Assembly: GCF_000003815.2 (NCBI RefSeq)
Contig: NC_049991.1
Span: forward strand, 5,489,822 to 5,553,821
From: Branchiostoma floridae
Lineage: Eukaryota > Chordata > Leptocardii > Amphioxiformes > Branchiostomatidae
Direction of reading: 5' to 3'
DNA: 64,000 nt
Shown: positions 17,578 to 62,714 of the stretch, piece after piece
Numbering within the stretch: position 1 is the first letter of the stretch
Layout of the letters: each line of letters begins with the position of its first letter
Made by a program: the position numbers and the translations under genes
Notes under the pieces: model-generated
The model's database searches: none
Told to the model about the DNA's origin: nothing
What the model saw: only the letters and a program-made list of their open reading frames with translations

Positions 17578-17633
17578 ACGACCCCTTGCCCCGGCGTAGG
17601 AAGGCCTGTCGGCTAACTTTAAAATGTATATAA

Positions 17634-21323: not shown

Positions 21324-21988
21324 CAAACCAAGTTTTACCGAAGGCCTGAACTAATCCTAAAAGTTTAATTAAAGAATATTTTTCGACCGATTGACGAGCA
21401 TTTCCCCTCTAAAGAAGGTGGCCAGAATCCTCCGTTATTTTTCCCTTCTATACTGACGACAAATATGATGATTAGGACTTTCACACGTGTCACTATCATT
21501 CGTCCTTTTGATAAGCACCAAGTGGCTCAAATTAAGCTGAAGTTCTCTGTTCCAGTGTGCCGATAGCCGAGGTGCATTCATGATAGACAGGACTTAAACC
21601 GCACTGTGCTCCGAAATGGGGGTCTGGCATCCCTCACAAGATAAGAAGTCCTACAGCGACGTCTTATATCTTAACCTGTTGTATGCCAGATGGCCTAAAG
21701 CTTGGATTGTTTCAGGAGAGTCATAGCCTTGAAGGATATGTTGCTTGCTAGGGGGGATTGTTTTGGACTCGGTATTGAAGTGCATTGAGAGAGATCCGCT
21801 AACCCCTACAGTCCGACATTACATTGGTACTGACAGAGAGTCGTGGAAGGAATTCTATGTGCGCGGGGAATGTCACAGGCCTTGCCCGGAATGTTATAGC
21901 TGTCCAGAATCTTCCTCAGTTTTCCTTCCACATACTACATCGCTTAGCACTGTAGAGTGATCTTAGTGAGCCTTGAGCAATCCACTAG

Positions 21989-22158
21989 TAAACTCCAAGC
22001 AGATCCTACAATGGCATAAGATAGTACCAACTGGCCAAGGAGTGTAGTCAGCCAAGAGGTGTCCCATTTGCGGTAGCAAAACACGCCTTTAGCCAGCTTC
22101 ACTCCTCTGCCAGCTTTTGATACTATCTTATGCTACCGTAGAATCTGCTTGGAGATTA
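21989..22158. mobile_element. foldback element, type B copy 1, 9-bp TSD
   Basis: The ends are TAAACTCCAAGCAGAT / ATCTGCTTGGAGATTA. Inner arms CATAAGATAGTA / TACTATCTTATG complete a long hairpin. ATCCACTAG occurs exactly on both sides (21980-21988 and 22159-22167). It has no coding capacity. Confidence 0.8.
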
Positions 22159-22242
22159 ATCCACTAGGTCCTCTAGTGCTAGCTTCCGGGTTTGGTACGC
22201 CGAAGATGGAAATACTTTTCGGAAGCTAGTTCACCTTTATCC

Positions 22243-22357
22243 TAGCCGGAGTACCATCCTCCATAGTGACCACTGGCTCAATCCTTTCGCTTGCTTACCA
22301 CGTACAAGCCAGCGAAAGGATTGCGCCAGATGTCTACGAGGAATGGTACTCAGGCTA
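22243..22357. mobile_element. 115-bp foldback element inside a dispersed repeat, 9-bp TSD
   Basis: The ends are TAGCCGGAGTACCAT / ATGGTACTCAGGCTA, with an inner hairpin CAATCCTTTCGCT / AGCGAAAGGATTG. The exact duplication CCTTTATCC lies at 22234-22242 and 22358-22366. The host repeat continues on the right as GTTGGGTAGCCTATATCCG. An uninterrupted relative of the host repeat is at 33850-33880. Confidence 0.85.
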
Positions 22358-22974
22358 CCTTTATCCGTTGGGTAGCCTATATCCGTGGTAAAAACAGGGT
22401 ATTTTCTTTTATCAAATCGACGGACGGCGGTTTCAAATTGTAATACCTTCAAAACATTGCAGGTTAAAACGTGACCGTCCGTCGAGTTTTTACATTCCTA
22501 ACTCATTAAAAAACGGAAATAGGCTTAAATACATGCGGAAAAGGGTGAACAAGCATTACACACCAAGAAAATTAGTAGCGAAAATAAGATTTACAGGGGC
22601 AGTTTATAATTTGCGTAGATAAAAAGATACTGTTTTAATTTTCAAAACACTTGTTGTGACGATATCCCGATGATGAGATTTTCGCTCTCCATTTAAAATC
22701 AGACGCATGTGATATGTCATGAAACATGGTTACTACATATCCTGTCCTAACCAATTTCCATTTCATTTCTCATCAGATATACCGCTCAGCTCATGTAGGG
22801 CTATAGGATAGTTCAGTTATAGTAGATAACGCAAACAAATCAACTCTACTTCGTCACTGATACCTGCAACTGTAGGGTGAGTAAAGATGAACAAGTAGTG
22901 CCTCCGATCCTTTTTTTTTATCTTCGAAGCTAAACCTATGCAATTACGTCGTATTGTGATTATTGTGTTAGACT

Positions 22975-23085
22975 AGATTTGTGACACTTTTATATGTATA
23001 TATCCTGACTTATGTGACCTGTACTTAGCTCGGTTGGGCAAAATTGTACAATAAAGGTCTTCATTCATTCATTCATTGAAAGTTC
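22975..23085 (+). mobile_element. LINE 3' end with (ATTC)n tail
   Basis: ACCTGTACTTAGCTCGG ... ACAATAAAGGTCTTC is followed by four ATTC units. The same 3' end occurs at 41150-41280. A microsatellite-like tail is usual for CR1/L2-type LINEs; only the untranslated tail is recognisable. Confidence 0.6.
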
Positions 23086-23154
23086 GAGTCCCTGGCCTAT
23101 CCTTATCTAAAAGTAGATATTGAGAGATAAAACAAACAAACAAACTCCAAGCAG

Positions 23155-23261
23155 AGGTTCGGCTCCGACTGTTTTTTTAGTCGTTTTTAGGCATAATAAT
23201 AGCGTGCTTTCTATTTTGTACTGTTTTCTTTATGTCATGATCAGTAGACCTCTGCTTGGAG
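23155..23261. mobile_element. foldback MITE, type A copy 3
   Basis: CTCCAAGCAGAGGTTCGGC on the left is answered by GACCTCTGCTTGGAGG on the right. The interior GTTTTCTTTATGTC also occurs at 57405-57418. Confidence 0.7.
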
Positions 23262-23625
23262 GGTATACTATACCCGACATAGCGGTGTTGGTTTTAAAAC
23301 CCCAAACCTCATTGTTAAAACAAAGTTCTGCTCTAACAGTCAATGTTTTGTGTGTATCATGTGTATGAAACATAGAAGGAATGTTACAAAAACGCTCCAT
23401 GTTTTCAGTACCAATGTTGTTGAAACAACTTCCCCCTCACTTCACACAGTTAAGCATACACCAAACACGTTCTAGTTGAATAGAATGCCGAGTCACACCA
23501 ACCAAACACGTTCAAGTTGAATAAAACGCCGAGTCACACCACAAAGTTTCAAACGTATGTTTACCGCAACCTTGTGATATTCAAGAGCGCTGTGGCCAAA
23601 TTGTGTTTCCACAATTCAAAGCATG

Positions 23626-24199
23626 CCCGTAGCCAGGGGGGGGTTCGGGGGGTTCGGAAGAACCCCCCCACATGCTCAAAGGTCCGCTTTTTCACACTCG
23701 AAGGTCCACTTTTTCATGCTCAAAGGTCCACTTTTTCATGTCAAGATTTTTTTCAAAGGCATGACTGATTTGCATTATTCACCGATAGACATTTCATTCA
23801 ATCCTAGTGAGTCTATCAGCAAAATTTGCCCCCAGAAAGTGCAGGAAATGGCTTTTCAGAGGGTCCAGATTTCAAAATTTCCCCGGACCACCATTGCAAC
23901 GCCTCCCGCCTTTGGTATCGGACATGGTGAAAATATGTCAGGGGAATCGGCCTTAAAGACTTATGCCCAAAACCTTGTGTATTTTAAGAGAAATTACATT
24001 AAACTTAGCCAGCGAATTTTGCCTGTCAAAATGCAGGAAATGGCGTTTCAGAGGGTTAAGATTTCAATTTTTCCCGGGGGAGCATGCCCCCGGACCCCCC
24101 TAGGCAGCTCACGCCTTCGGCGTGAGTCTCGCGCCTGCGGCGCTCGATGGTCCCACAAATACTAAAAAGAACCCCCCCAACCAAAATCCTAGCTACGGG
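23626..24199. mobile_element. CCCGTAGC-ended DNA transposon, CATG target duplication
   Basis: A 574-bp element. The ends CCCGTAGCCAGG / CCTAGCTACGGG are inverted with one change, and CATG flanks both sides (23622-23625 and 24200-24203). The interior contains three 25-bp tandem units around CTCAAAGGTCC (23680-23745) and two diverged copies of a GCAGGAAATGGC(T/G)TTTCAGAGGG block. The open reading frame across it has no recognisable protein. Confidence 0.75.
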
Positions 24200-24682
24200 C
24201 ATGCAAAGGGAACTCAGATAAAAGCCCGCTGGTGGTCGCCTAGCACCAATGCTCGCTTCCATCAAGAGACCCTAATGAGACGTCACCAACGCCATGGCCA
24301 CCTGGGTTGTTCACCTTCACGTGGGCACAATAGTCCAGAAAATAACCACCGCCCCCCTCCCCACTTTCCACCACCAGCTGCTGGTGCCCTTTGTTTGGCC
24401 CGAACTAACGGCCAGACCATGACATCCGATCTGAAGGGTCCAAACTGTTCTTGACCAGAAGAAGAAGTACTTATAGTCCCCGTGTATAGAGTACTTTCAT
24501 ATGAGAAGTGCCCTGTCAAACAATCGCGGGTAACCCCTGATGTATTTAACGGACTTTCTTTTGAGTGGAATGGGAACGCCTTTTTAATTTGACTACGTCT
24601 GTACGTGTGCACCTGTATACCGTTTGTGGGCAAGCTTGCGCTTGATTCTCAGTCACAGAGAATCTTTTGAGATTAGGAAATG

Positions 24683-24948
24683 TAGCCTCCATAGCAGGCT
24701 TTCTGGTGCCTTTTTTGGCTCATATACACTTTTGCTGGCCATTTCTATTTGTACTCGGTCGACGCTGATTGCTGGCGCTTTCTGATAGCCGGCCTCTGAA
24801 GCCACTTTGTAACGCCGTTTAGGTGCAGGCTTTCAGAGGCCGGCTATCAGAAAACAGCAATCAGCGACCGAGTACAAATAGAAATGGCCAGCAAATGTGT
24901 ATTATGAGCCCCCCAAAAAAGGCCCCAGAAAGCCTGGTATGGAGGCTA
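24683..24948. mobile_element. 266-bp near-perfect foldback element, 8-bp TSD
   Basis: Arms of about 121 bp (24683-24803 and 24828-24948) are inverted with few mismatches around a loop of about 24 bases. The termini are TAGCCTCCAT / ATGGAGGCTA. The exact direct repeat AGGAAATG lies at 24675-24682 and 24949-24956. The transcript would form a very stable hairpin. Confidence 0.85.
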
Positions 24949-25354
24949 AGGAAATGGCGGTTGGTGAACGTATACAGGTTCAGAAAACTCACTTTAGACA
25001 TTTATTCATGTTCCTTCCTTTCCCGAAGTTATTCCTTCGCTTATTTCTAAGAACACTTGTTGAAAAAGAGGTCTTCAGAGTGGTTTTGGAGAATCAGAGA
25101 CTCGCTTTATGACTTTCATCCCTGTCCCTTCCTTCCCTGAAGTTATTCCTTCGTTCATTTCTAAGAACACTTGTTTGTCAAAGTGTTTTTGGAGAATTGG
25201 TCGTGTTTTGCTTCTGTCGGCATAACACCGGACTCAAGCTTTTCAAACAAAGGGACAACTGCAAAGGTTACAATGTGCGGTGATGCAGGTTTCAAAACAA
25301 GGACAAGCCGATATCAGTAGATTTAAATCTGCACCCTTCTTTATTCTGTGGACA

Positions 25355-25480
25355 GTTTGATTTGATTTGATTTATTCGGCTGTATAATCATGACAAATAC
25401 AGCCAGGGCTACCCAACTAGCCGGAGGCTATTATCAAGGGCTAGCCCTGGTAACAATACAATATACGTTATGCAATAGTA
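25355..25480 (-). mobile_element. LINE 3' end, minus orientation
   Basis: The plus strand shows TTTGATTTGATTTGATTTATTCGG, i.e. a reversed simple tail, followed by TACAGCCAGGGCTACCC and GGGCTAGCCCTGG. This looks like the 3' end of a LINE inserted on the minus strand; its body upstream (above 25480) is not recognisable. Confidence 0.45.
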
Positions 25481-26270
25481 TACAATATACAACAGTATTA
25501 ATGATACAGGTAACTTTGACTACAGAGGCGATCCGTGTTTAAAGCTTGACTAGCAGTCGTTTTAATAAAAATAAAAATGATAAAAATAAGACATACAGAG
25601 CCAATGTCATATCTGTAGGTAAGTCATCTTGCATGACTGATATCGTAGTATGGTATGATGTGATATGATATGATATGATCCAGAAAATGATAATGATAAG
25701 TATGATGAAAACCATGACCATGGCAAGTCCAAAAACAGTTCCGCTGCAGCACTGTACAAACCCGCTAGGAGGACCACTGCCAAACTTGACCTACATTCTC
25801 CAAAAACCCTGTCCACCTACCATAAACTACACCTAAAACATAACCTCATTGGCGAAGGTAATACAGTTTTTATTACATCGGTGGTACCACAGAAGAAATA
25901 TTGTTCAGCACTGCTCTCAAAAAGCGCACAGAGTTTTTCTGCATATACATGTACGTAGTTGTATGCCGTCTATACTTAACGTTAGTATTATAGGCAGTCA
26001 TGTCCGTCCGTTTCTCGTCCATTGTCCTTTTTCCCCCAGTCTAGACGGGCCCGCTGGTTCCTTGCCCTTTCGCGGTTTCACCCCGACTTCCTCTTTTGTT
26101 CCGGACCATTCTAGAAGTTCATTCGGTTGTCATGACAACAGATGAGGTTGACCTTCCTCATAACTCATCGGTCAAGACGGCTGTCCTGGCGGTGTGGCGC
26201 CAATAACGTTTGGTAAAAGATGTCGACCCATTGTGGCACACGCTGCGGTTGATCGGATAATAGGCGACAA

Positions 26271-26553
26271 ACAAGAGAGAGCACATTTTGTTTCACATTT
26301 CTAGACTCTTTAGGGTCCTTTAGTTCAAACCCACGGCAAAGTCAGGGCAAAACTGTTCATCTTGATTGTTGAAGGCTGCTTTGAAGGGAAGAATTCTGCC
26401 CGAAGTTTCAATTTGGATAAAAAAAGAGCGAGCACATTTTGTTTCACATTTCTAGACACTTTATTTCAACTTCCATTGTAAACATGTTCATCTTGATTAT
26501 TGAAGACTGGTTTTATTTGAATGGAGGAATTCTGCCCGAAGTTTCAATGTGGT
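26271..26553. repeat. imperfect tandem duplication, about 140 bp unit
   Basis: 26271-26418 and 26420-26553 share AGCACATTTTGTTTCACATT, CATCTTGATT, TTGAAG and GAATTCTGCCCGAAGTTTCA in the same order. No gene is nearby. Confidence 0.75.
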
Positions 26554-26799
26554 TGGAAAGTAACTTTGCCTTGCAGCTTTGAGTTTAAAATTTGTGATCA
26601 TCTGTGGACAAATTTGTCAGAAGCATTTAGTACGGGCGCACACGGAGAGCTTGTGGCTTGGCTTTAAAGTCCTGTAGTGTGGAGGTCTAACTTGACATAG
26701 TACTGTTTTTACTGTACAACATTTTAGGATGTTTTATGAAAGAAAATCCAATAGTGGTGTAGCACACATGGAATTAGTCTTCCTAGAATAAAATCTGTG

Positions 26800-27145
26800 G
26801 TTCCTTTATTCCGTTATTCCCCTTTGAAGATTTTGACGAAAACGCCCCAGCAGTTCAAGTTGCTAGGGGGCCTAACACTTCTTCCTTACATCACAAGCTA
26901 CCTGACACCAAAAATCAAGACCATAGCATGTTCAGGTCAAAAGATACAGAAAACTGAAGTTCTGCTTCAGTGCCAAGGTCACATACTTGGGGCCCAAAAT
27001 CGACATTGACCTTCGTCTTCCTAACACCTACCCACATACCAAATATTACCATATTCAATCAAGAGGTTCTTGAATTATGCTGACTACAATAATCCGGAAA
27101 CACAAACAGACAGACACACACACAACCACACATACACACACTGTT
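26800..27145 (+). repeat. dispersed repeat with CA-rich tail
   Basis: Plus-orientation relative of the minus-strand repeat at 20310-20720. It ends in AACAGACAGACACACACAC. A possible third, shorter member is around 28030-28150. Confidence 0.5.
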
Positions 27146-28219
27146 AGAACACTGAAAGTAGGGCGGATCACATCTGAATGAAATTACATTCATCAGTCAT
27201 TCACTACAACTGTGGCAAAGTCTGTTCCCTAGGACTATCCCCAGTACACACCTTTCGCCGTTTCGGTCGATATTACTCGTTAGTAGAGACTCCACGAGTC
27301 AACACTGAAAAGTACCTATGTTGACTATTCTTACAATCAGGACAACAACACCTTTCCTCGTTAAAACTCTGACACAGTTACAGGAAAAATGTGTTTTTTC
27401 TTCAAACCCCCTTACAAAAGACGCTATGGAGAGAGAGAGCCCTTGCCGAGATGCTGAAGAGGCGTCGCTACTCGTAGGGGTCACCTGTGTCACACCTCAT
27501 TAAGGTAGACAGGTGCCTTCAAACGGGACCGCCACACCCTGTGTCTACACCCCACTTCTTCAGCAGAGGGGTGGTCAGCTTTCCTCGCAGGTGGTATCGC
27601 AATTATGACCAGTGGACCTCATTAGAGAAGGGCTGAACTGAAAGCCTAACCCTAGACGCCATTGTCTCAGCAAGTCCTCCCGTGCTATGAAATGCCCATT
27701 TCGTGTCTGTGTAGAACCCCTACTTGGGGTGGAGACACACATGGCATTGATTTTGTATGGTGTCAAGTCCTGCATCGTTTTGAACCTACTAAAATTCAAA
27801 ATTACAACCGTATTGTGCGTCTTTAATAGTCGTGATGGAGACGTTAGTGTGTGATCGAATTCTCCGTAGAGAATCAAGATTTTCTGCTCTTTTAAATGTT
27901 ACTTATTTCTTTACCTCATTCAAACAGGGTGAAATATATCAACCATACTGTTAAACACTAGTAACCTAACAAACATTGGGAGGTAGTGACCGCATGTAAT
28001 ACTGCAGTACCTAACAAACTGCTAGGGGGGAGGCGAAATGTCAGTTCTTCTTCGGGACTTTGATGGCTTCAACCATACTAAAATTCATACAAATCCGTCA
28101 AAGGGATATTGAGTTACAGATACAAACGCACATACACACACAACCAAACACAATACCCCCGTCAAAGGTGAACCTCATTCACAGAGTTAATAAAGAAAGC
28201 AGGACCAGGTCATTCATTG

Positions 28220-35000: not shown

Positions 35001-38000
35001 CGAAGTTATGAAAATAGATATCAAAGTAATTTCCTATAAATCCCCCCAAATACTACAGGGTTATTAAATGCTACTGGGGATAGAGCTTGTGTTTCAGATG
35101 AGATTTATCTGACTAAGGTCATAATTAGAAGCAATTGGTGGAATTGCAAAGAAATCTGATTCCAGAAAAGTCCAGCTCCTTCCATGAATGATGCAACCTA
35201 AAAAGCTGTTGAAAATGAAGTGACAGGGAAAATTTAAAATTTCTACTGCTAGTACATGTATATGATTTCTTACATTGTACGAAAATCAGCCAAATGGACA
35301 CATAGTTTTATTTCGTTAACGTCACCTTCCATGAATGATGGAACCAAAAAAGCTGTTGAAAATGAAGCGAAGGAAAATACTCAAAATTTCTACTGCTAGT
35401 ACATGGATATGATTTCTTACATTGTACGAAAATCAGCCGAATGGACACTTGGTTTTATTACGTTAACGTCACCGATACGATTGGTACAGAGGTGACCCCA
35501 TTACATTATCCATCCAGGTGTTGTTCCAAATCCCCTCATCACCTTTGTTTACCAGTGTGCAGAGGCAAAACTGTGGGGTGTAATCTGTAGAGAACAAGGG
35601 TCTGCTTCTCATTTTCTGACCGAAAATTAGTTGTAATGAGGTCGCCCTGCCTTGTAAACACTGGGAGTCTACTGGAGGTGCCTAGCCTTGCTCATGAGGT
35701 ATGCCAACTATGCCGACTTTGTTTCCAAGAGGAATAGTGTGTCTATCTAACAACTCCAAGGTAGTGGGACTCCACGAACCGGTGACCTACATGTACCTAA
35801 TTAAGGAGGTGGGAGGATTGTCTTGGTGATAGATATGCTGGTTTATTAAACTGGATTATACTGCTTCTTTGTCTTGAAGGGAGGGACTGACAATGACTTT
35901 GGGATTGAAGATCATCTTTTCCTTTGTACCAAGATGGTACACAAAATATCCAAATTAAATGACTTTTGTAACTAGCAACCTAACCGTTAGACTAACATTG
36001 GACCAACAGTCCAACAAGGTACTTTTAATTTTCTACTTCTTGAAGTTCTTCTATTTCTTGGAGGAAAGTCCTCAGATTTTACTGTTATACCATCTACAAA
36101 CAGTGTAATTAAATAACTTCTGCACAATTTAACAAAAGTGCTAAGTCTACTTGAATCTACAATTTGTACCATGAATGATTGCTGTCACCACAACTGTATT
36201 TTTCTTTCCATCGCTCACATTTTTGTGGTGTGGGCTTGTGCCTAACACCCAACATTTCAGGTCCCAACAATGGATCAGTATTCAAAAAAGCTTGAAAATT
36301 GTCCATGACAACTCATCTCCCAGGCTTTGAATCCAATACAAGCAGCCTTGCTTTACCCTAATCCAAACCCCCATTCTAATACGTTGGCAATCTTGTGGAA
36401 AAAATTAGGTTCACCTTTGAGCAATACTGTGGGTGGTCGAACGGGCCAATAATTACAACTTCTAAATTGAATCAGTGTTCACATTCTCATTTGTCCTGTG
36501 TGGCTTTACACAAAAAATACAGCCGAGTTCCTGCCATTTCCATGGAAACTCGACATTGGGGACAGAAAAAAATCAGAGAAGCGTTGCTCGAGTTTGTGCG
36601 CTGTACTGCGGCCCTCCATTCTAGACAGCGTAATCCTTTTAACCAAAATGCAAAGTGACCCCAAGCGTTAAAGTGCGGTCATGAAAGGTCACTCTAAATG
36701 GTTATCCTTTTTTAAAGCCATCCGGCCGATTCATTTGGTTCCTTCAAAAGCTGTCCCACAGCATGCAGTGTCCATACATGCGCAGTCTGCCATCTTTGGT
36801 ATAACACTGTTTCCCTTTGTAGTTTGTCACACTGCTTCCAAAACATCCTTTGTCCTTGAAACTTTTTTTACCAACTGCAGTGATATAACTTCCCCAAATA
36901 AAGCTCAAGCGTAAAAAAATATTGAACAAAACTACCAAAGTTTGGAAGGTATAACTACCATACAGTCATGGATGTCTGTATGTAAAAAAATATTTATGAT
37001 GCCAATTAGCAATATTGCATTACTACTATCCCGACATCTGCGGTTTAACATATCTATTGTTTCAGTGGCTGCTTCCAGAGATGTGTGCGGCTTAAAACCC
37101 TAGCATAAAAAAAGATATAACAAAACTACCAAAGTTTATGGCTTGTACCAACTACCCCATACAGTCATGTCTGTAAAAAAATATTCATGATGCTAATAAG
37201 CAGTATTGCATTACTACTGTCTCACCATCTGCAGTTTAACGTATTTATTGTTTCGGTGGCTACTTCCAGAGATGGGTGCAGCTTTCCCACGCACACAATT
37301 CCCAGGTGGGACCTGTTATGTCCACTCTACCCGTGGTGATGGGCTGGGACCTGTGGGACTGCCCTCCACTTCAATCAATTCCAGCATGGAAAATGCTCCA
37401 TCACAGACAGCAATATCCCCAAATTGCCACGACCTCCCATGAAAATGGCCACATTTTGTGAACCCATCAGAAAACCGTGTCAAATCTAGTCAAGGAACCA
37501 AGGGTGTGATGCCTCGGGTAGATAGGTATAGCTTGTCTTGTGGGTTTGCAATTGAAGGCCACTTTTCTCTTGAAATCGCAGAACCCACAAATTTTAGAAA
37601 ATGTGGGGCTTTTCGTCTCCCTCTGCTTCCAAAAAAGAAGTCAAACCCAACCTGCTTAGAAATAGCCAACACTAGTATTAGATTAGAACATTGTTTATGA
37701 CTGTCCATTGTCACTATGTGTATACCATGTACTTGCAATTAGCCCTCGGGCACGAACTTGCAAATAAACTTCTTATTATTGTGCGAAAGAAACTATTCAA
37801 AACCTATTGGATTACCTTATAATAAATTATAAGCTCTGACGAAGGTGTCTGAGAGACATCAAAACGTAAGCTATGTAAGTACCCACTGGTTGTGTACAAA
37901 GAATTTCTCCTTTATCCTAAGAGTAGAAATGTCTCTAATCATCAACATTCCTTGAATCTATGCTCTAAATTCTATATTCAAATTATAACAACATATAGCA

Positions 38001-41000
38001 AACTCATTTGCTTTCAGTTTCACTGTGCTTTCATTGCAATGTAGGATGGAAATAGATTTGTAGTGTTTTACGTCGCTGTTGGAATAATTCAATTTAATAG
38101 TAATAACAATGCATTGGAGATGCATGTTTGCAATTTGATGAATTTGTAGTGGAAAAAGTCATTGTGAAAATGAACCACAGTAAAAGTTTCAACACGTACA
38201 GCACTGCTCATCTTTGTAAGTTTCTGTCACAAGAAAATATCGCTACATCTTATAAGCATTTACAAGAAAATGTTGCCGCATCGCATAAGCATTTACAAGT
38301 CTCAAGAGGCCTCTCACTGTCCCTTTGACCCCAATCTTTCCTTTGTTACATGGCTAGATTTTAAGACTGAACCCCTCAGCGCGCATCCCACACCTGGAAG
38401 GTAATGGATGTTTTCTCAGCGAGTCGGTGACACTCCTTCTGAAAGAGGAGGCCACCATTAACAAACTTCAAAGCACTCTATCAAACCCTCATGGACACTT
38501 GTTTATGCCTTACTTCTAAAGGCACCCTGAATGGGTGCTAATGATTATCAATTGGTTGGCATCTCTTATCATGGGGTGGCCTGTAGATCATTATGAGCTG
38601 TGTTACCTAGCAATATTCTTTGGTGGCGAAAATAGCCTTTGCCATAAATTATGATGGTGCAAAATTGAAATCTTGAAAGGAAAAGGGAGGAGATCTTGTC
38701 AAGAGAGGCCTGTTCCCATCTGCCAGGAGGTGTGTTCTGTTTGGTGTTGGTCAAAAGATTTTTGTAGGCTTCGCAAGTTGCTGACTAGGCACATTTGAGT
38801 TATCTATCTTTGGACTTAAGATATCATTGAGCAATAGCCTTTGAAAGAACACTAAAATATCCTCATGGCATTAGAAACTAAAATTCTGAATAGCTGTTTT
38901 GGAAATTTTCAAAACTTGTTTCAACTTTTGATAGCGGATGAAGTGACGTTAGCATCTAACCTTTTTGGGGGTTCAAAAATACTTTATGATTGGTACATAT
39001 TAACTGCTCTTATCTTCTTAAAATAACTTGGCAGCTAATAAAAATAGATGTGCTTTTTGCAATACTTACATAAGATATCGAGGCAGATTTGTTAGTGTCT
39101 TTGTGAACATCTCAGAGTCAGCCTTAATGTTTTTTTTTTATCAGTTTGAAACCTTAATTTAATGGTGACAATTAAATCACAGACGTACAGCATGATACCA
39201 ACATTCGTGCTATCCATAGCTCTAAATGTACACAGTGCCAATTGTTTTGAGTGCTTGAAGGCCATCACAGGTCAAGAAAGAAAGGGTATTACATTTCTTT
39301 CTCTTCCTCAACAAACTTGAAGCTCTGGTCCAACATACTAATGAGGCATTGCCAACATGTATCTAAGTACATACAAATAGTCTGTGGTCTGTAGATCCTT
39401 GAGGTTGGACTTTTTACAAAAAGCCAACTCTATATATGAAAATGTTGCCATGCACGCACCAACACATGGCTGCTACACCCTCTTTATCATACACTTTGGG
39501 CAACTCTCTGGACTTGCTGACATCTGTCCACTTGTGTTGCACCAAACAAAACACGAGAAGGAAAATGGTGCTTTGGTCAAAGTGGCCCTTCCTACAACAC
39601 CTGGCACTAAAGCCCCTCTTCTGAATGACCAGGCTACTGAACTCGGTGCAAGAGTGCTCGACTGTGTCCCTTTTTTGGCGGGACAATGGCGGACGAAAAT
39701 CAATTGTCGCTCGACCAATGAGGACGGACGGACAATATGGCTGGGAAGCAGGCGGGCACAATTCCCACGTTTGGGACACCCTCCCTTCCCCCTCGCGCTA
39801 GCATCTGTGCATCTGTCTGGGGGACTGTCCTTCCCACTTCAGGACAAAAAAAGTAGGCATGTCAAATCCATTCCCCTGTTAGCAGGGTGGAATAGCGGGG
39901 TGATCGACTCCAGAAAAAGGGTCTGAATCCCGTCAATGTTTATTAATCGTCAGTTTGGCACAAAGGCAGCGGCGGGATCTGACAGCCGAGACCAGAATTA
40001 CTCCTTTGTGGTGGGTAAACAGCTATTGCTGGTCATTGTGCAATAAAGAAGGTCCTGCTGATGTATTTTTACCAGCTGCCAGGACAATTCCATATTGGAA
40101 TACAATGGAGTTCACCGGGGTTCCAACATTAAGGGTGACCCAAAACGGGAACAAGCCATTTGTTTTACATGATTGTCCTAAAATGGTTATTACACTTACA
40201 ACTGCATTAACTTTTAAACACTTGCTTTTTTGTGCCAACTTCTTTCCATTAAAATTAGTGAAAAACATTTTCAATGATGCAATTTTTTACAAACAAAAAA
40301 GAGTATTCTACGGAAGGTTCAAAACACCTGTAATCGAGTGTACTGTTCATTTTACATTGTTAACATGATGAAATCTTCTGAAATCTCATTCTTTATTGGA
40401 TTACGTTCAACAGTGGCAGCAAAATCCTGATTTACAAAGATATATAAATGTGATAAACTGATATATGTGATGTTTCCTTACAAAAATACTATCATTATCT
40501 AGTCACTTGTTTTGTTGGTTGGTTTAAGTGTGCATCTTTCAGAGATCCAAAGTAAAATGTGTTTTAAGTTTTACCAACAAAACAAATTCTGTTAACTTGG
40601 CAGATGGCAAACTGTAGGGATCTATACTAAAAAAAGAAAACGTGAGAAAGAAACGGTGGGAAAACTGAATATGAAACTCTCTTCCACCTCCAAACCTAGC
40701 ATTAACCTGGGAGGAGGTAAAACGAAGGATAAATTGATAATGGCAGTGTGTCAGCTCATGTTATAAACGACCTTTCTGCTACACCATGGGCCATTCCGTA
40801 TGGGTAGGCAATTGCGGATTTCCATGGTGCTTTGAAAACTCTGAGGGAAAAAGTGGAGAACCTGGTATTTGTTGTCGGACAATCGCGGTAAAGAGTATAA
40901 TCAAGCCACTGGTAATGGCCTGTACGAAATGGCCTTGAAATTACCCATTCTGAAGGAAAGGAAGTACAACTGTGTGAGCCACACTTGAGGGGACACACTG

Positions 41001-44000: not shown

Positions 44001-47000
44001 ATTTGCCGTCCAATATTTGCATTTTTCCACACATTAACCCGTGAGGACCATTCAGTGCCCAAAACTTCTGTTCCTAAAAAGTTCTCTACAAGTACAACTA
44101 CAATAAAATTAGCACTCCGTAGATGTTGAAATCAATTGTTTCCAAGAATATTTTAAAACAAGAAGCAGCCTGAATAAGAGATGACATACCAAGATGCTAC
44201 CTACAAATCCCTGTGGTAGCAGCTAAAAGTTTGTTTCTTTTTCTCAGCAAAGAATGAAGATAAATCTTTCCCCCCCCCCCCAAAAAAAAACAGAGTATGC
44301 AGATTTGAAGACAATGTTTCAGAAGCACCATGTAACAACTACAGAAAGAAACAGCAAACTTTCTTTTTTCTACTATTAAAGTTTGATCCAAATTGCAGCT
44401 TGTTTCCTTTAGTACATATACTTGTGAGTCAGCAGACTTCTAGTTCTATCCTGTTGGCACTTTTCCAGCTCAGTGTGACAGGCCACATGACTCTATTTTG
44501 TGATTCTGTGCAGGCCACAGTACAACCCTGGGCATGGACTGTGACAGGGTAGATGGTGTCAGGGTCATGACATACCAACCATATATCTTCACACTGCTGT
44601 TAAACTGATAGAAGATGTCTTCTTTAAAGTGCATGTTAGAAGAAAATCTGTATCTTCAAAGACAACTACACATCATTCAAAGGACTACTCTATTGACTGT
44701 TTCTGCAGGCCTATAAACAGTTACACATTATTTTTACGAATTGAAGAACCACATTTTACAGAAGTTGCCTGTTGCCATTTACAGGTAAAACAGAAAGGAA
44801 CAAAGTATTGATTTTTTGCTGGGGATTTCATGTAACTTTGTTGTTTTCAGCAATCAAATGAGAGATTCTCAACAAGTTCCTTTTCCTCGGTGAACACTTC
44901 ATCAAGAGGCGACCTTTGACAAAGGTACCAGTCAGAGAAGGTTTGAGGTCAGGACACCAGCTGTCTATCCAAGACACCCCCCTCCCCATGAGGACCGCTT
45001 CGCCAGAGTTAGGACCCTTCTTTTGTGAGCATACCAACAGAAAAGCACAGAGGCAGACTGCAACAACAGAGCGCTTGTTCTTTGCTAACCCTGATTTATT
45101 CATGAGAGCTGAGCGGATTTGTGGACGGGCTAGAGGCAGGGGGTCGGACAGATCATCCCTCTTTCCACCAGGGCCAAAGAGGATCAGAAACGACCTTACA
45201 GAAACGACCTTTACATTCCTCCAGTACCCAAAGCAAATATGCCTAGGGCACCTGGTAGGGTATTTAAACATCCCAAAACATCTGGGCTTGCTTGTGGCTG
45301 CTGTACATAGTATACAGACCAAGGATGGCCAAAAATTTACAAAGATTTCTATCGCAATACTGATAAAAGGGTAAAGGTATGGCCAGAAAACAAACAAAGG
45401 TGTTGTCTAGAACTCGGCAAAGCAGAGTAATGGCGGGGTGCCAGCAAAGCCTGATTGATATACACTACGCCAGCCGCCTATCACGCGACTGCCCACTTAA
45501 AGGTGCGTCAGAATGTAATTTGCCAGAGGCCAGGGTAACCGAAGACCTGTAATAAGAAAGGGGTGTCTTCTTAAACAATGGGTATCAGTGATTCTTAAAA
45601 ACAAGAGAATAGAACTTTTGACCAAGTTTTTTTGTTCAATGTAAGATGTCTTGATGTCTGTAGACAACATGCCTGTATACCAGACCCCAGCCCGATCTCA
45701 AAAATATCTATCGTTTGATATCTTTGAGATTGGGCTAGGGTCTGGTATCAAGGCTATTAGCCTGGTTACAAAACCCCAGCCCGATCTCAAGTATCTATCG
45801 TGCAACACGAAAGATATCTGAGGTTGGGGTATGGTATCCAGGCTACAAAGTACAAGGCTATAGACAACACATCTGACTGAGTTAGCGAAATTCTCCAAGT
45901 CCAATCAAATTGAAGAAGGTGACCAGATTTCATCATACCAAAAAGTGCTCGCTAANNNNNNNNNNNNNNNNNNNNNNNNNNNNNNNNNNNNNNNNNNNNN
46001 NNNNNNNNNNNNNNNNNNNNNNNNNNNNNNNNNNNNNNNNNNNNNNNNNNNNNNNATTTCAGTTTACATTGTTCTAAAGGGACAGTTTTCTGTCATGTGA
46101 ACAATAACATAGCTTGTCATATAGTTCAATTTCAGTTGATATTGTTCTACTACAGTGCCAGTTTTCAATCATATAACGTTTCATCCAAACTGACAGAAAA
46201 GCTACAGAAAGATATATAGACCATGACCGCCAAGCTAGCAAGCTATGTAGAAAACGGCTATAAACAACATGTAGTTAAAAAAAGTATTTTGCCTAAATTT
46301 TCCCAGACCTCAGTTGTCAAAATACTGCTTATCTGTTATCAAACAGTTGCCAGCATTCAAGCTGCATTCCCAGATTATGAACACAAACGTTCACATCCGG
46401 AATGGCGAAATATTTCCAAATGCATCTGATGCTGGATGCAGTTTACAGATAAACTGTGCTATCATTCCGTTTTGTTTGCTTTCTCGGCCCCATTGCTTCA
46501 AGAATGCTGTCAGTCCAGTTTGCATGTAAAAAGGCACCAAACATCTACATTTGCTCTTTCCTCAAGGCTACTACCCGGTTTATGGCAAATTAACGACCCA
46601 CCAAATCAAATGTTGCTCAGAAAAGAAGACGGGGGTAAACAAAAGAAGACATACTTTGAAGCTTTTACCAAAGCTGATGCAATCTATGTTACTAGCATTT
46701 CCTATCTTTCTTTGAGCACACTATCTGACTCCTCAATCTTGAAACTCTTTTGTTTTCCTGACGAATTTTCAAGATGCCTCGGTAAAGAGCAGAAACTGGG
46801 AGACGCTAGGCCGTGACAGGCTTGCTGACAACGCAGGTAAACAACAACAAAGACATACTTTCAGAAACCTTTCTCTATGGTTCATTAGTTGAAGCACAAT
46901 AGAGGAGATTCTACCCTTCTTGCTAATCATTAACAATGGTTTCTGTCATCACTCATACAGAGAGTGATAGACAGAAGGTGTTGCTCAATTAACTGTGCAG

Positions 47001-54440: not shown

Positions 54441-54466
54441 CAAGGAACCTTGATAAAAGCTCCTTG
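54441..54466. repeat. short CAAGGA hairpin
   Basis: CAAGGAaCcTTgaTAAAAGCTCCTTG, imperfect. Part of the short-hairpin set; a longer-loop relative is at 54244-54290. Confidence 0.45.
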
Positions 54467-55473: not shown

Positions 55474-55501
55474 CAAGGAGGTCCCTCTTTCAACCTCCTT
55501 G
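55474..55501. repeat. short CAAGGAGGT hairpin
   Basis: CAAGGAGGT / ACCTCCTTG with a loop of about 10 bases. Confidence 0.55.
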
Positions 55502-56630
55502 ATTCAAGTCACTTTGCATCTTGAAACAAGAAAACACTTGCTAGTCTGTTTAGGTGGCAAAATATAAACTCCAAACCCTTTTCATGACAATAACTAGCAT
55601 ATATCACAAAATGAAGATCACAAAGATATGCGCTTTTCAAATGACGATATCATGGTCACAAACTCAACCAACTAAACTATCCAAGGGCCGCAAAAATATA
55701 CGAGCAGGAGAGACGTAAACAAGATCATAGTTGATGAGGAAGCAACGGTTTCATTTTTGAAGGACGTCGCGTGTGGTTAATGCTTGTGGGTGGGTAGTGG
55801 AACATACATTAACTTCTTAGGAATTCTTTAGATGTTTCCCTACCCCTTACGGTACCGCTCTTGTTCGGTAAAAAGGGGTAAGTCCGAATCCAATAAAAGG
55901 AGGCGCAGTTCAGTTGGATATCTCCATAGGTGTCCTGTGCATGATGACGGCTTGTCGTCAGTTTTGATGGATGGGGCACAATAACATGGAGAATCCCCGC
56001 CTCTCTTCTACATTTCTGTGAACAGAGGGATTCTATAACCCCACCCTTTTCCTGTAGCGGCAAGACTTCAAACGCACCGCTCTGTTTACCATATCAAATA
56101 AAGGGAAAATAACTATAATAGCTTATTAGGAATAGGTCTTCGTTTTTGGTGTAAGTTGCCTAAAATGTTTTTGGTTAATTGGAACTGATTTATTTCGGTT
56201 ATCATTTGAAGTCTGTTTATGTTGTGCGTTTAGTTTGGCAACATAAATTTGTACACAGAAAAGAAAAGCTAGGTTGACGTGTGTGTGTGTGCAAAGAAAA
56301 TGATCTAGTGTGGACGCCGTCGTCGTGAATTTCCTAAAAATGCTAGAACATTTTTGTCGACCTTAGTTAGTTGCTACACTCTGGTGAATTACTTTTTGAA
56401 GACATTGTCAATGACTGACCTCATGCAACTAGTAGAACGCCAGACAAGAGAAAAAAGTTTTTACACATGCACAAACAACACTTCTTATCATTTGCCAACC
56501 ACAGGACAAATACACTAATTGGTTTTCAAAGAGCTTAAAAAATGCAATTTTGGCTCGATCCGCTGTTGGTCTGTTTTGCCCATTGTATTGTATTGTATTG
56601 TTCATCACTGAATACAAAATACACTCTGGT

Positions 56631-56743
56631 CCAAGCAGAGGTTAAGCTCCGGCTGTTTTTGACGTGTTTTAGACATTTTTGTCGGGCTTTCTATATATTT
56701 AGTACCGTTTCCTTAAGAAATGTATCTATTCTCTGCTTGGAGA
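56631..56743. mobile_element. foldback MITE, type A copy 4
   Basis: CCAAGCAGAGGTTAAGCTCCGG on the left, CTCTGCTTGGAGA on the right, and interior TTGTCGGGCTTTCTAT. The right arm is partly decayed. Confidence 0.6.
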
Positions 56744-57342
56744 ATAGAAAGGGAAATAAAAGCTAGAAACACAGTAAAATACTGCCCGATCAGTGCGTAT
56801 CTTATACAATAGTGATTTTCCTTCGTCCCTGTCGGTCTCCTTGGAAACGATGATTGCTAAGATATCTCAACCATTATTCGGATAAGTAGTCTACAACAGA
56901 CCCGTCCTTCTTCCTATGAGGTCTTGCGTCGGTAATAGCTCCAATCATCTGCACTAGATACTGTTTTTAACGAGCCATTATTTTGCATCGTTACTTCATT
57001 TTCAGCCTCGTTTGCTGCTTGTAAACTCGCAATTACACCGAGCTTTTTCACAGGCGGCTGGTTGTCTTGAATAAAACATTGTAAGACAATAGGGCGCCAC
57101 TTGTTTGAGAGTCGCCATACATTTTAATAAGTCTGCCGGAGGTCGGCATACTTTTGACGTGGATGTCTTATCAGTGAATTATCATTTTGTATCCAGGCTG
57201 GGATAAAAGAAAGGAGCTACCCCAGGTTTAATGGACGTAGAACGAAGAGTATTTGTCCATTATCATTACGTCCGTGAAAATGGAGGTATTGTTTTTATTC
57301 TGGACAATTTTTAACCTCCTTGATGTCAAGAAACGCTTGATG

Positions 57343-57545
57343 TATTGCGATACTCTTCAAGCAGACGTTAGGCGGTTTTATCGGGCTTTCTATTTTGTAC
57401 CGTTTTCTTTATGTCTCGCGGCCACGATTGCGATGGTTTTTGGTAGGTGGGTGATCCTATTCCCCAAGCAGAGGTTTAGCTCTGGCTGCTTTTAGACGTG
57501 TTTTTAGGCGATTTTGTCGGACTGTCTGGTATCTCCATGAAAAAG
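57343..57545. mobile_element. two partial type A foldback ends
   Basis: CAAGCAGACGTTAGGCGG (57358) and CCAAGCAGAGGTTTAGC (57462) are two left-type ends in the same orientation. No matching right end lies before the LINE. Confidence 0.5.
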
Positions 57546-57599
57546 GAGACGTTGTTGTGTGTTTTTTTTTTGGGGGGGGGGGGGGGGTGTCTGCGTTTC

Positions 57600-59636
57600 A
57601 GGATGACTGTCATAATGAAATGTTAAAATGTTCGCCACATATTATCATAGAACCACTTACGAAACTTTTTAACTTATTCTTATCTGCTGGTTACTTTCCC
57701 CAAGACTGGTGTACCAGCCACATTGTTGCTATTCATAAAGGCGGGGCAAAAGACGACGCTGGCAACTATAGAGGAATTTCGGTCACTAGTTGCCTTTCCA
57801 AGTTGTTTACATCAATACTAAACACACGCCTAACCACATTTCTAGACGAAAATAATCTAATCTCCCCAAACCAAGCCGGCTTTAGAAAAGGATTTGGCAC
57901 GAATGATAACTTATTTGTCTTGGACTCCTTGCTAAGCAAACACCTTTCCGAAAACAAACGCATTTATTCATGTTTTATCGACTTTAAAAAAGCCTTCGAC
58001 TCCGTTTGGAGAGAGGGACTTCGTTTTAAACTGCTAAACTCGGGAATAGGGGGTAACTTTTACAAGCTTATTAAATGTATGTACACTAAACCTCAGACGT
58101 GTGTAAAAACCGAGTCCGGTCTAACGCCTCCATTTGTGACCAAAAAAGGTGTTAGACAAGGCTGCAATCTAAGTCCTACATTGTTCAACCTATTTATTAA
58201 TGACCTCGTTCATGTACTTGATAATGCCGAATGTGAACCACCATCTCTACATAATTTATTTGTATCGTGCTTGTTATATGCAGACGATGTCGTTATACTT
58301 TCTGAATCAGATAAAGGGTTGCAATGCGCGCTCAACAGACTAAGCGCCTTTTGCAAAAAATGGAAACTCCAAGTTAACCTAAAGAAAACTAAAGTTATAA
58401 TCTTCAACAAATCTGGCCGATCCTTCCGAAACCAAACATTCGTATTCGATCAAGACACTCTGGACATAGTACCTTCTTACTGCTATCTAGGCCTGACTAT
58501 TACATCGTCGGGAAGCTTCTCCCTGGCCAAAAAACAACTTTCACTCAAAGCTCGTAAAGCTATGTATAGTTTGAAATCTCTCATTCGCTCTTCCGTTTCG
58601 CCAAAATGCTTGCTAAGAATATTTGATTCCTGTATAAAACCGATTCTCCTATATGGATGTGAAATTTGGGGCACGGAGTCTATAAATGACAACTCTCCAA
58701 TTGAAGTTTCGCATCACCGCTTTTGTAAGAATATACTTGGAGTTTCCAGAAATTGTAGTAATTTGGCATCTAGAGCGGAGCTTGGTAGATTTCCTTTAGA
58801 CTTAGATATATCCGTGCGTGTTATTCGTTACTGGCTACGCTTATTACAAATGGATCCTCATAGACATTTATTACAAGCTGATGCCCTTTTGTATCAACAT
58901 AGATCTATTTCTAATGGTCGTAGGAGAACTTTGTTACAACGAGTCAAAGAAATTTTAGATGGTAGTGGTCTTTCCTACCTGTTCTATTCATGTAACTCAC
59001 TAAGTGATATCAGATCTATATGTACCATGATAAGATCTAGAATCTCTGATATGTTTATCCAAACCTCTCGTCATAACTTAAGCACTGATACCGGTAAGCT
59101 AAGGTTTTACAAGACTTGTAAATCAGCACATACTATGGAAAAATACCTAGAATTAGATAATTTTGATCTACGCTCCGCAATCAGCAAAATTAGAATTAGT
59201 GCCCACCCTCTCGAAATTGAGAGAGGGCGATACAAGAAGCTACCTGTATGTAAAAGAACGTGTAAGCAGTGCCCGTCAAACATGGTGGAAGACGAAACAC
59301 ACTTTATGTCAAACTGTTCTTTCTATGATCACGAAAGAAAGGAGCTGTTTGAAGAGGCCACCAAATTCCATCCAAACTTCTTAACATTCACCGACAAAAA
59401 GAAAACAATTCTCCTTCTAACTTCACAAAACCCACACATAATAGAAAAGGTGGGATGTTTCGTCTTCCACTGTCTTCGAAAAAGGAGTCGAACCCAATAG
59501 CCCAGGACCTAGAGTTAGCTTTTACTTCTTTTAGACTAGAGTAGACACCTTTGATATTGTTTTTACCTTGTCTGAATTCATGTCACCTGCAATTAGCCCA
59601 CGGGCAAGAATTTGCAATAAACTTTATTATAATATT
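57600..59636 (+). mobile_element. 5'-truncated LINE (non-LTR retrotransposon)
   Basis: The copy starts within the ORF2 region, just after T11 and G16 runs, and ends with a short 3' UTR (59501-59636) finishing TTGCAATAAACTTTATTAT. It carries the reverse-transcriptase ORF. The endonuclease part and ORF1 are missing, as expected for truncated target-primed insertions. A diverged 3' copy of the same family lies at 37570-37780. Confidence 0.85.
57601..59500 (+). CDS. LINE reverse transcriptase, truncated at the N-terminus but uninterrupted
   Basis: About 630 codons without a stop. RT motifs in order are NEMLK, FPQDWCTSHIVAIHKGG, NYRGISV, NQAGFRKGFGT, CFIDFKKAFDSVWR (motif A), KGVRQGCNLSPTLFNLFIND (motif B), LLYADDVVILSES (YADD catalytic motif C), then VNLKKTKVIIF and YCYLGLTI. 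The C-terminal part has the LINE-type CxxC...H motif (CKQCPSNMVEDETHFMSNC). The frame opens to an ATG at 57557, but those first residues come from homopolymer flank, so no genuine start is present. Subfamily (Jockey/CR1/I-like) is not resolved. An intact frame implies a fairly young insertion. Confidence 0.9.
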
Positions 59637-61627
59637 TCAAGGTCAGTTTTTGTCCCCTGGTATGTGACCTTGGTACTGCAGCAGAATTTCCATAGATTCG
59701 TATTTTTTGAACGGGACGTGCCATGCATGATGGTCTTGATATCTTGGTGGCAGATAGATTGTGACGTAATCCTCCTAGCAGCTTGCTCTGGAATTGTAGG
59801 GGCTCTTGTGCCAAAATCTTCCCAGGAGAATAACGTTATAACCGAAGAAAGGGACGACATATTTCCATGATGTTCATTATGCAGTTAGATTAAAGTTAAA
59901 CAGGGATGTACACAATGAAGTGAAAATTATGCAAATTATGATTTAATTTGTATAATAAATTAGGAAAATATGTATTTGCATCGTTTTCCATTATAGGATT
60001 CAAATACATGTAAAATACTAGTAGGTAGTTTGTGGAAGGTGGAACATTAACAGATACCAATTATTATACAAACGATGTCCTTGTAAATGATTGGACTGTC
60101 AACATTTTGCCATTTGTAAGTTAGTTAAAGGTGTATATTATGTAGCAAGCATATATTAGGTAGATGTATTATTTGCATAATCAGAACAATTCATGGAGAT
60201 ATGACGTCTCCGAACTATCGGACAGAACAAGGATCCTATATCATGTCTATTGCGTAGGCAGAGCGCAAGGCAGGGCGATGGTAAGGCATGTCCTTGACGT
60301 GGGATAGTGTTCGTGGCAACTTGCTGTCGGATGCTATCTAACAAGTCTCTTTTTCACGGTCCGAAATACGAACGTTAATATATAATAGTGGCTGAAAATT
60401 GTCCAAACTGAACGAACCATTACAATAGTGTGCCTGGTCAGTCATAGAAGATCCGGCCGGTCCAACCCAAGAAGCGTATGTTTCAGCAAGGAGGTTATAT
60501 TATCTGATATAACCTCCTTGGTTTCAGAGACTATACGTTTTTGGCGGGAAAGTTGCTGATCGTGCCAGAATATCGTCTGATCCTGAGGTAAGAACACGAG
60601 GCCAGGACTCTCCCCAACTCTCGCGAGTTCGCGACCTTTCAGTCTGGAGCAGACACCGCGACACTCATGAATACCCGCCAGACAATGCCCACCGATGCGC
60701 CCCTCGGATAGCCTCCCTATAGAAGCCTAGCTTTTTAGATTCCCATCCATCTCTGCGACATGTCTCCGACTATTCTCCTCAGAGCGGTGCAGCAAGCTTC
60801 ATTAGAGTCACCATGCCCGCAAAAGAAGCGTGACCGAGGGAACAAATAATAGAGTCCTTTGCTGGGTGCTACATCTGTCGCTGCCCTTATTGAGCACGGT
60901 TCACGACTTGATTTTGTCCGAGTCTGAGCAAGTGAGATTCGGGACGTGTATGGATTAGAGCTGCTTTGTACGAATTTTTCGCTCATTTTGTACGTCTTAA
61001 AAGTTGTGTATTTTCTGTCTTAGATGAAACCAACGCCCTCGGCAGCACAAACAAACACACACAAAGCAATATCTCTTTGCATGGAAATAACAAGAATATG
61101 AAACTTGAATCATCCACTAGAAGGTTATGATAGATTTGCTAAATTTTTGGCTCAATGTCGTTGATCCGTAGTCTGAGAGTTCTTTTTGTCTTAGAATGTA
61201 ATTTCATGTCTGATACAAAAATCGACCGAAACAAAAAAACTAACCAAACGAATAATGTATTCTACCCACACAGATGAACTTTCATGCTTAGACGAAAATT
61301 TTGTTTGTCCTTGTTACTGTAGACAGTGAGAAAAGGGTGGTGGATGTGAAAGAATACAGCGTAAATTGTTTTTCTCTTCCTACTCTGAAGTTGTACACAA
61401 TAAACTTCTGATACTTTAATTGTATGGAGTTTTGTAAGAACTTTTCCCCATACATGTACATGTGATTCTCGATCTCTTTCTAATCCTTTTTTTTTTTTGG
61501 CGAAAAGTATAACCCCCCTGATTTTCTTTATATCAACCAATGACTTTATATAACATTATAAGATATATGGTCCTTGGATTCACATGCATGTGAATAGGAA
61601 CCTTACATCTTCTTGTAGATTAGGCAA
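59637..61627. other. intergenic, no gene recognised
   Basis: I found only a 34-bp hairpin (60487-60520) and simple sequence (T10 at 61489). No coding exon is supported. Confidence 0.5.
60487..60520. repeat. short CAAGGAGGTTATAT hairpin
   Basis: CAAGGAGGTTATAT / ATATAACCTCCTTG, a perfect 14-bp stem with a 6-base loop. It is the longest member of the short-hairpin set. Confidence 0.7.
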
Positions 61628-61631
61628 TTCG

Positions 61632-62222
61632 TCTCCAAGCAGAGATTTGACGTGTCCATCATAAACTTTCCGCTGATAGCCGTCGAATCCCATGTACATG
61701 CATTTGAATCTTGCTGAATTTCAAGTGTCTATTTTGGTTTGGGATCGTGCAACTGGAATTATGGTAGGATCTCTCACACTTACCATCCGGGGCCCGGCCG
61801 GGCAGTTTGCGGGAACGTAAAGTATGATATAAAAGACAACAAACACACACAACTTTTCTTAAATCAGTTTATCAGAGTGTATGTATATTTCAAATCCTTG
61901 TAAAACACCTTTATTTTTCGTTCCCACAAACAGCATATACCAGTGTCTTGGTATTCGGTAGGAAATCCACACTCTTAGGCCGGCCAGATACACTCCTTTG
62001 GCCAACTTTAAGTAGGACTTACTTATCCCGCCGTAGGATCTGCTTGGAGATTACACTCACGCAGACTTCTTGTCTTGTTGTCTATGAAAGACAGACGCAC
62101 ATACCAGCCTGATAAGAACTTAAAGAAGAACGCAAAGAAAACGTTAAATGTACACAAATGGTGTGTTCTTTTATATCATACGTTTTGTTCCCGAAAGCTG
62201 CCCGGCCGGGCCCCGGTTTGGA
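61632..62222. mobile_element. nested foldback remnants with 65-bp inverted arms
   Basis: A left end TCTCCAAGCAGAG (61632) and a right end TCTGCTTGGAGATTA (62038-62052) bracket part of a second inverted repeat. Its arms (about 61788-61860 and 62154-62216) share CCGGGGCCCGGCCGGGCAG and its inverse, plus TATGATATAAAAGA. A 19-bp direct repeat, ACTTCTTGTCTTGTTGTCT, at 62065-62083 and 62256-62274 spans the right arm. The order of insertions is unclear. Confidence 0.5.
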
Positions 62223-62279
62223 AATGTGATGTAGGCCATAGCAACAGAACGCAAGACTTCTTGTCTTGTTGTCTAAAAC

Positions 62280-62488
62280 TACTCTCCAAGCAGAGGTAGG
62301 GCTCCGGCTGTTATTTAAACGTTTTTATAGTCCTTTTTATCGGGCATATCTAGTTTGGCCTTTTTCTTGAAATACCTCAGCCAGATAGGTTTTGACACAG
62401 CAAGTTATAATAAAAAATAGAAAGCCGAAAAAAACGACTAAAAAAAGGTTAAAAAAACAGCCGGAGCCTAACCTCTGCTTGGGGAGTA
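62280..62488. mobile_element. foldback MITE, type A copy 5, 9-bp TSD
   Basis: The ends TACTCTCCAAGCAGAGG / CCTCTGCTTGGGGAGTA extend inward as GGCTCCGGCTGTT / AACAGCCGGAGCC. The flanks GTCTAAAAC (62271-62279) and GTCTAAGAC (62489-62497) match at 8 of 9 bases. Confidence 0.8.
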
Positions 62489-62517
62489 GTCTAAGACCAC
62501 CGTACACCACACCTGCC

Positions 62518-62706
62518 TAGTCTCCAAGCAGACCCAACGGTGCCTTAGAAATAGTATCAAAGCTGGCCAGGGACTTAGTATAGCGGCACCAGGTGCCCGT
62601 TTGACTCCCTTAGCCGGCTACTAGAGTATCTCCCCTTGGCCGGCTATACTCTTTGCCAGCTTTGATATATTATCTCTAAGGCACCGATGGGTCTGCTTGG
62701 AGACTA
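62518..62706. mobile_element. foldback element, type B copy 2, 8-9-bp TSD
   Basis: The ends TAGTCTCCAAGCAGACCC / GGGTCTGCTTGGAGACTA are exact inverses. The inner arms GGTGCCTTAGA / TCTAAGGCACC continue the stem. ACACCTGCC lies at 62509-62517 and again at 62706-62714, the shared A allowing an 8- or 9-bp reading. Confidence 0.85.
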
Positions 62707-62714
62707 CACCTGCC

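Follow-up and report, generated by a model that had tools for sequence, protein, structure and literature searches.

A 64,000-nucleotide stretch of the genome of the lancelet Branchiostoma floridae (the window hereafter; bases 5489822-5553821 of contig 13, in an assembly of 513.4 Mb in 431 contigs) contains six hairpins that are mobile elements of the foldback/miniature inverted-repeat transposable element (MITE) type, with 8-9-bp target-site duplications, and that belong to abundant families of small non-coding transposons. They are almost certainly non-autonomous terminal inverted repeat (TIR) elements with 9-bp duplications. The overall reading favoured here, on balance, is that they are MITE/foldback TIR transposons moved by an enzyme of the Mutator type that acts in trans.

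The six elements have five types of end, by which they are assigned to families A to E. Family B is present twice, at 21989..22158 (170 bp; ends TAAACTCCAAGCAGATCCTAC / TAATCTCCAAGCAGATTCTAC; 9-bp flanking repeat ATCCACTAG) and at 62518..62706 (189 bp; ends TAGTCTCCAAGCAGACCC; flanking repeat (A)CACCTGCC), the duplication of the latter being 8 or 9 bp according to which A is counted as part of the element. The much larger family A is represented by 62280..62488 (209 bp; ends TACTCTCCAAGCAGAGGT / TACTCCCCAAGCAGAGGT), which is flanked by GTCTAA(A/G)AC, with one mismatch; family C by 24683..24948 (266 bp; ends TAGCCTCCATAGCAGGC; repeat AGGAAATG), the arms of which span nearly the whole length; and family D by 22243..22357 (115 bp; ends TAGCCKGAGTACCAT; flanking repeat CCTTTATCC). 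The family E unit, at 45670..45860, has TAGCCTGG/TACCA-type ends. Coordinates, ends and flanking repeats of the six thus read as an initial annotation of this DNA had given them, with a qualification for 45670-45860, which was taken as a single foldback: one exact 9-bp repeat (TAGACAACA) does enclose it, but folding resolves it into two adjacent hairpins (45671-45754 and 45756-45847), and it starts with TG rather than TA.

The strong self-complementarity ascribed to all six is borne out by folding, in that none of 200 dinucleotide shuffles per element reached the real energy in any case (z-scores of -10.7 for 62280, -26.8 for 24683, -10.0 for 21989, -10.7 for 22243, -11.9 for 45670 and -13.5 for 62518). 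The window was also scanned, without a target list or a shuffled control, for pairs of 18-bp inverted ends (up to 4 mismatches, length 50-2500 bp, simple sequence excluded) flanked by a repeat of 8 bp exact, or of 9-11 bp with no more than one mismatch. Nine rows resulted; five of the six are among them, the exception being 45670-45860, with three entered a second time at shifted edges, and the one additional row is an AT-rich candidate at 36459-38100.

The 14-base sequence CTCCAAGCAGAGGT of family A has 6,856 exact matches genome-wide (3466 forward, 3390 reverse), compared with 2 + 7 = 9 copies for the same sequence read backwards as a control. DNA searches of the genome gave 106 match rows for the family C element at 24683 (from the 40 of 1067 candidates that were scored) and 81 for the family D element at 22243 (from 40 of 556); the rows exceed the places because the elements are palindromic, such that many places are listed on both strands. 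Over half of the 81 family D rows span the full element, bases 1-115, in support of the edges assigned to it. Further family B copies are present at loci L037, L011, L097 and L014, with a partial copy in L013. Longer family C copies, of 886 bp and of 1390 bp including 572 N, also occur, the former with no frame above 90 aa and the latter with none above 120 aa outside its 572-N run. MITEs are under about 600 bp in size, and the window elements, at 115-266 bp, have the inverted ends, the non-coding interiors and the high copy number of that class.

The 8-9-bp duplications recur at sampled copies of families A, B, C and D elsewhere in the genome. The family A sample consists of 36 end pairs from the window and from loci L001-L028, which lie within the first 3.1 Mb of contig C1. 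A 9-bp repeat, allowing one mismatch, is present in 14 of these pairs, an 8-bp repeat in three and a 7-bp repeat in one; when the flanks are mispaired, the frequency of a match at up to one mismatch is 0.0000 for 9 bp and 0.0016 for 8 bp. Among 14 family C pairs from the best-scoring copies, seven have a 9-bp repeat (again allowing one mismatch) and four an exact 8-bp repeat, with mispaired flanks giving 0.0000 at both lengths. For family D, 24-base stretches across each edge of ten top-ranked copies were compared, with a shift of up to 3 bp permitted: eight of the ten share at least 8 bp with no more than one mismatch, compared with 2 of 90 mispaired combinations, and five have exact duplications, compared with 0 of 90. 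All six family B copies so compared, the partial copy in L013 being excluded, share at least 8 bp at one mismatch or fewer, with edges free by 3 bp and without a control, while the exact 9-bp duplication of family E comes from the single window copy only. The modal length is 9 bp, with an 8-bp minority in A, C and D, and such constancy at many copies, with mispairing controls near zero, is a feature of MITEs. The prospect that copies across the genome would lack consistent duplications is therefore not realised in the A to D samples, except that half of the family A pairs lack a clean one.

The ends of the elements at 21989, 62280 and 62518 all carry the 11-base motif CTCCAAGCAGA, which in 62280 is exact at the left and has one mismatch at the right; the motif occurs at 12 sites in the window, compared with about 0.03 expected by our own arithmetic, and marks at least eight window elements or loose ends. 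The initial annotation had proposed that the interiors differ, with unrelated sequences sharing terminal rules. Terminal rules are indeed seen and the remaining bodies differ, but 21989 and 62518 are one family, and both are related to 62280 by their ends. In an anchored comparison of ends (ten pairs, 20000 shuffles each, with the E consensus taken from one copy), only 2/20000 shuffles reached the A-B score and 1/20000 the D-E score. The window elements have two terminal groups, A/B with TA[CAG]TCTCCAAGCAGA and D/E with TAGCCTGRNTACCA. The ends of C (TAGCCTCCATAGCAGGC) form a third type with a weak resemblance to both groups, in that they are weakly like those of A (89/20000), B (100/20000) and E (148/20000), with the C-D similarity weaker (1000/20000).

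Behind the A/B ends the bodies turn over. In a sample of 107 ends that match CTCCAAGCAGA exactly or with one mismatch, biased because it was drawn mainly with CTCCAAGCAGAGGT as the query, conservation starts sharply at TA and declines past the motif; column -4 is T in 89% of the ends, and at column -5 no base exceeds 36%. On the basis of the 18 bases after CTCCAAGCAGA, the 107 ends divide into 38 groups, 30 with one member, though some single-member groups are chance matches (e.g. L041, L066, L077). Besides plain hairpins, the bodies include an array of tandem units (L012) and a composite (L013); composite arms with tandem subterminal repeats, a trait of the Foldback group, were not observed in the window elements on inspection of their sequence. 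An array of ~23-bp units (TTCGGCTCCGAGCAGATGTAGGG-like) at 2619-3011 of L006 adjoins a related family end, so that some members may carry composite foldback arms.

It is proposed that a transposase encoded elsewhere would bind the short outer end and excise the element, and that reinsertion would then occur with a 9-bp, or sometimes 8-bp, staggered cut. Anything between two such ends could move in this manner, which would account for the abrupt change of bodies inside a shared end. Movement in trans and recognition of the ends via a short motif are inferred, and the most likely mover is of the Mutator-like element (MULE)/foldback type, to which the 9-bp duplications, the long arms of family C and the numerous non-coding members with a short outer end in common are suited. 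A Mutator-type enzyme acting in trans is probably responsible. MULE duplications are given as 8-11 bp in the part of a published survey drawn on here (PMC6446971), and the sampled duplications lie within that range. Domains of the MULE type are coded in this genome, with 27 matches to PF10551 and 40 to PF20700, which are counted in favour of a Mutator mover.

Several observations weigh against this reading, some concerning the duplications, some the ends and some the mover. Of the family A pairs, 18/36 are without a clean duplication, the sample including eroded copies and probably mispaired ends; 3/14 family C pairs have no repeat by the criteria used, and 2/10 family D copies have none. The family A shortfall, along with the two-hairpin structure of the 45670 unit, is what might be seen if the hairpins were structural or segmental repeats with coincidental flanking repeats, but that explanation is extremely improbable in view of the thousands of dispersed copies, the abrupt edges of full-length matches, and duplications that are not the same at different copies, agreement between mispaired flanks being very rare. 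With respect to the ends, those of A/B and D/E share nothing beyond TA (20000/20000 shuffles reach the score). This bears on the earlier proposal that one transposase mobilises all of the elements, i.e. that a single enzyme reads a common end rule (TA..C) in all six. The 8-9-bp duplication length common to A, B, C, D and E (for E, in one window copy), the TA..TA edges in A to D, and the weak scores of C ends with A, B and E accord with the proposal; however, the A/B and D/E ends are unalignable outside that dinucleotide, the C-D similarity is weaker still, and 9-bp duplications are common to whole superfamilies. It is unlikely, on balance, that one enzyme serves all five end types. A broader possibility is that the 15-bp end TA[CAG]TCTCCAAGCAGA is a universal handle: dozens of unrelated bodies, tandem arrays and composite hairpins included, would have been captured between a pair of its copies and carried to thousands of places by an enzyme outside the described animal transposase superfamilies; this is improbable.

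With respect to the mover, the search turned up no autonomous element that bears ends of these types, although its absence is a limit of the search and not a result. The 27 PF10551 (MULE) matches include several in open frames of at least 350 aa, some of which may be domesticated genes rather than transposons. Flanks were read to ~1.5 kb on both sides at 26 of the 27 loci (less at L075), and to ~3-4 kb at ten; within the flanks read no bounding pair of ends is present at any of the 27, the end matches in L066, L073, L077, L078 and L081 being single, chance-like and partnerless. Two of the MULEs (L057, L059) are instead bounded by inverted ends of another type, built of tandem repeats. Among the 40 PF20700 matches, 12 of which have open frames of 515-748 aa, no bounding pair was found at two loci (1.6-2 kb flanks) or in one tandem-pair gap; 12-mer inverted repeats were absent across two flank pairs (1.6-2 kb), and single weak end matches occur in L092 and L095. 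That no MULE or PF20700 locus with flanks read is bounded by the ends counts for a mover that is not of the Mutator type, i.e. Merlin, KDZ, P, hAT or an undescribed superfamily, as does the coding of Merlin (DDE_Tnp_IS1595; 3 matches) and KDZ (12 short matches) in the genome. In 2/3 Merlin regions, however, of ~3 kb each, no bounding ends are present, though there are small copies close by (one of family B in L097; an A-like pair in L098). Elements of the hAT and P types duplicate 8 bp, whereas 9 bp is the commonest length in A and D; in family C (n=14) seven duplications are of 9 bp and four of 8 bp. A mover from outside the Mutator group is accordingly possible but somewhat doubtful, and a Mutator-type enzyme acting in trans is preferred.

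Some other features of the candidate loci merit description. L057 and L059 (flanks L088/L089 and L084/L085) have MULE frames of 422 and 590 aa between inverted tandem arrays of the GTCATTTCGTTACA and CAACTCGGACC types, with near copies at L058 and L060, and are foldback-like Mutator elements in this genome. A gene with a MULE domain is identical over 2,621 bp on two contigs (L055 on C2, L056 on C13); the second half of its 1,384-aa frame is an acidic tandem-repeat region, and 14-mer inverted ends were not found within ~4 kb of it. Two PF20700 'Mutator' genes occur in tandem at C10:11450533-11455639 of the genome (G000), 3,952 bp apart and with identical scores, and three PF20700 match rows are clustered on C2 near 16.47 Mb. 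Candidate long elements at L009 and L010 (contig C1), with exact ends ~4.6 kb apart, were rejected, as there are unrelated copies inside. A rarer end, TCTCCAAGCAGATGTG, has 86 + 80 exact copies, compared with 0 + 0 for its control; it was discarded as the end of a long element, there being no frame above 115 aa in the ~2.9 kb inward of three copies, and its possible partner ends at L109:180 and L110:426 were likewise rejected, with no exact 9-bp duplication.

The window contains additional A- and B-type sequences. A family A copy beyond the first list, at 20165..20287, has the 9-bp repeat GGTTCATGT and edges uncertain by 1-2 bp, and other family A copies, all without a clear duplication, lie at 21188..21323, at 23141..23265 (outer edges eroded) and at 56625..56746 (left end eroded). 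A family A fragment at 57351..57520, with one recognisable end and no duplication, overlaps the beginning of an open frame of 681 aa (57455-59500) that carries a reverse-transcriptase domain; it may be, given this overlap, that the fragment interrupts, or has become part of, the 5' side of the retroelement. The region 61633..62053 has two loose ends, CTCCAAGCAGAG at 61633 and a family B end at about 62039-62053, and is probably not one element because it has no duplication. A loose family end, TTACTCTCCAAGCAGATG, is present on the forward strand at 18325..18335, with no partner seen.

Consistent with the initial annotation, which saw no transposase in the window, no transposase domain was found by a Pfam scan (E at most 0.001) of 24 frames, out of the 28 in the window that reach 110 aa; the matches are to host genes, comprising a piece of Nup85 on the minus strand and a frame of the TMEM70/186/223 family, and to the one reverse transcriptase. 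Rfam gave 0 matches in the window at the curators' thresholds, and viral contigs gave 0 matches for TACTCTCCAAGCAGAGGTT. The window also has other repeats. A dispersed repeat starting TACTGTAAATGCATTTAAGTTCGCGG, with inverted ends, is present at 7414-7626 and 13350-13549 in copies that are 87% identical, and also in L001 and L006. Another foldback, AAGCCCCGTTTACAAATCAAGA...CTCGGCCGAG, at 5772-5914, has a relative nested within the 886-bp family C element (L034, 1880-2075). A 35-nt inverted pair at 17633-17667 / 17947-17981 is 94% complementary, with a spacing of 279 nt.

The kind of element described here is well known, and the six probably belong to a collection of genome parasites that is ordinary in nature, though unusually rich. 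LanceleTn MITE families of B. floridae were reportedly described by Osborne et al. in 2006, and are compared here by name alone; families A-E may already be catalogued in Repbase or as LanceleTn. The ends are not described in the titles and abstract openings of the amphioxus MITE/Mutator literature, a scope that excludes Repbase, the 2006 LanceleTn paper and the 2010 Phantom paper, and, of 81 papers with the 11-mer CTCCAAGCAGA in their text, the 20 examined are, by title, outside transposon biology. The combination of a fixed short end with many bodies, and a sharp boundary between them, should be useful for studying the birth of new MITEs. If the mover is indeed of the Mutator type, the elements would be the small counterpart of lancelet MULE genes missed by a 2019 survey, the consulted part of which reports MULE transposases as not detectable in B. 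floridae (PMC6446971), in contrast to the 27 PF10551 matches in this genome; otherwise, they are a well-stocked case of an ordinary genome parasite.

The comparisons that follow relate to those parts of the cited papers drawn on here. The animal Phantom and Muta MULEs resemble the window elements in their 8-10-bp duplications and variable TIRs, but differ in that no coding element with ends of the window type was found here (PMC6446971). Drosophila FB4 is likewise a non-autonomous foldback, with 9-10-bp duplications and a transposase of its own that is not known, and was assigned to the MULEs by its duplication and arm length; its arms are, however, ~700 bp, whereas the window elements are 115-266 bp in all (PMC8277862). 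The Mutator/Foldback element Tm1 of root-knot nematodes has mostly 9-bp duplications (45/53 Tm1 duplications are of 8-10 bp), foldback-like ends, and both transposase-coding and MITE-like members, the latter sharing its ends (PMC3169594). By contrast with the simple TA..TA termini of the window elements, Tm1 ends have asymmetric 7-bp motifs and tandem ~14-bp repeats, and the coding members, which are rare in Tm1, were not found here (PMC3169594). The tandem-repeat inverted ends of the MULEs at L057 and L059 are of the Tm1-like type (PMC3169594).

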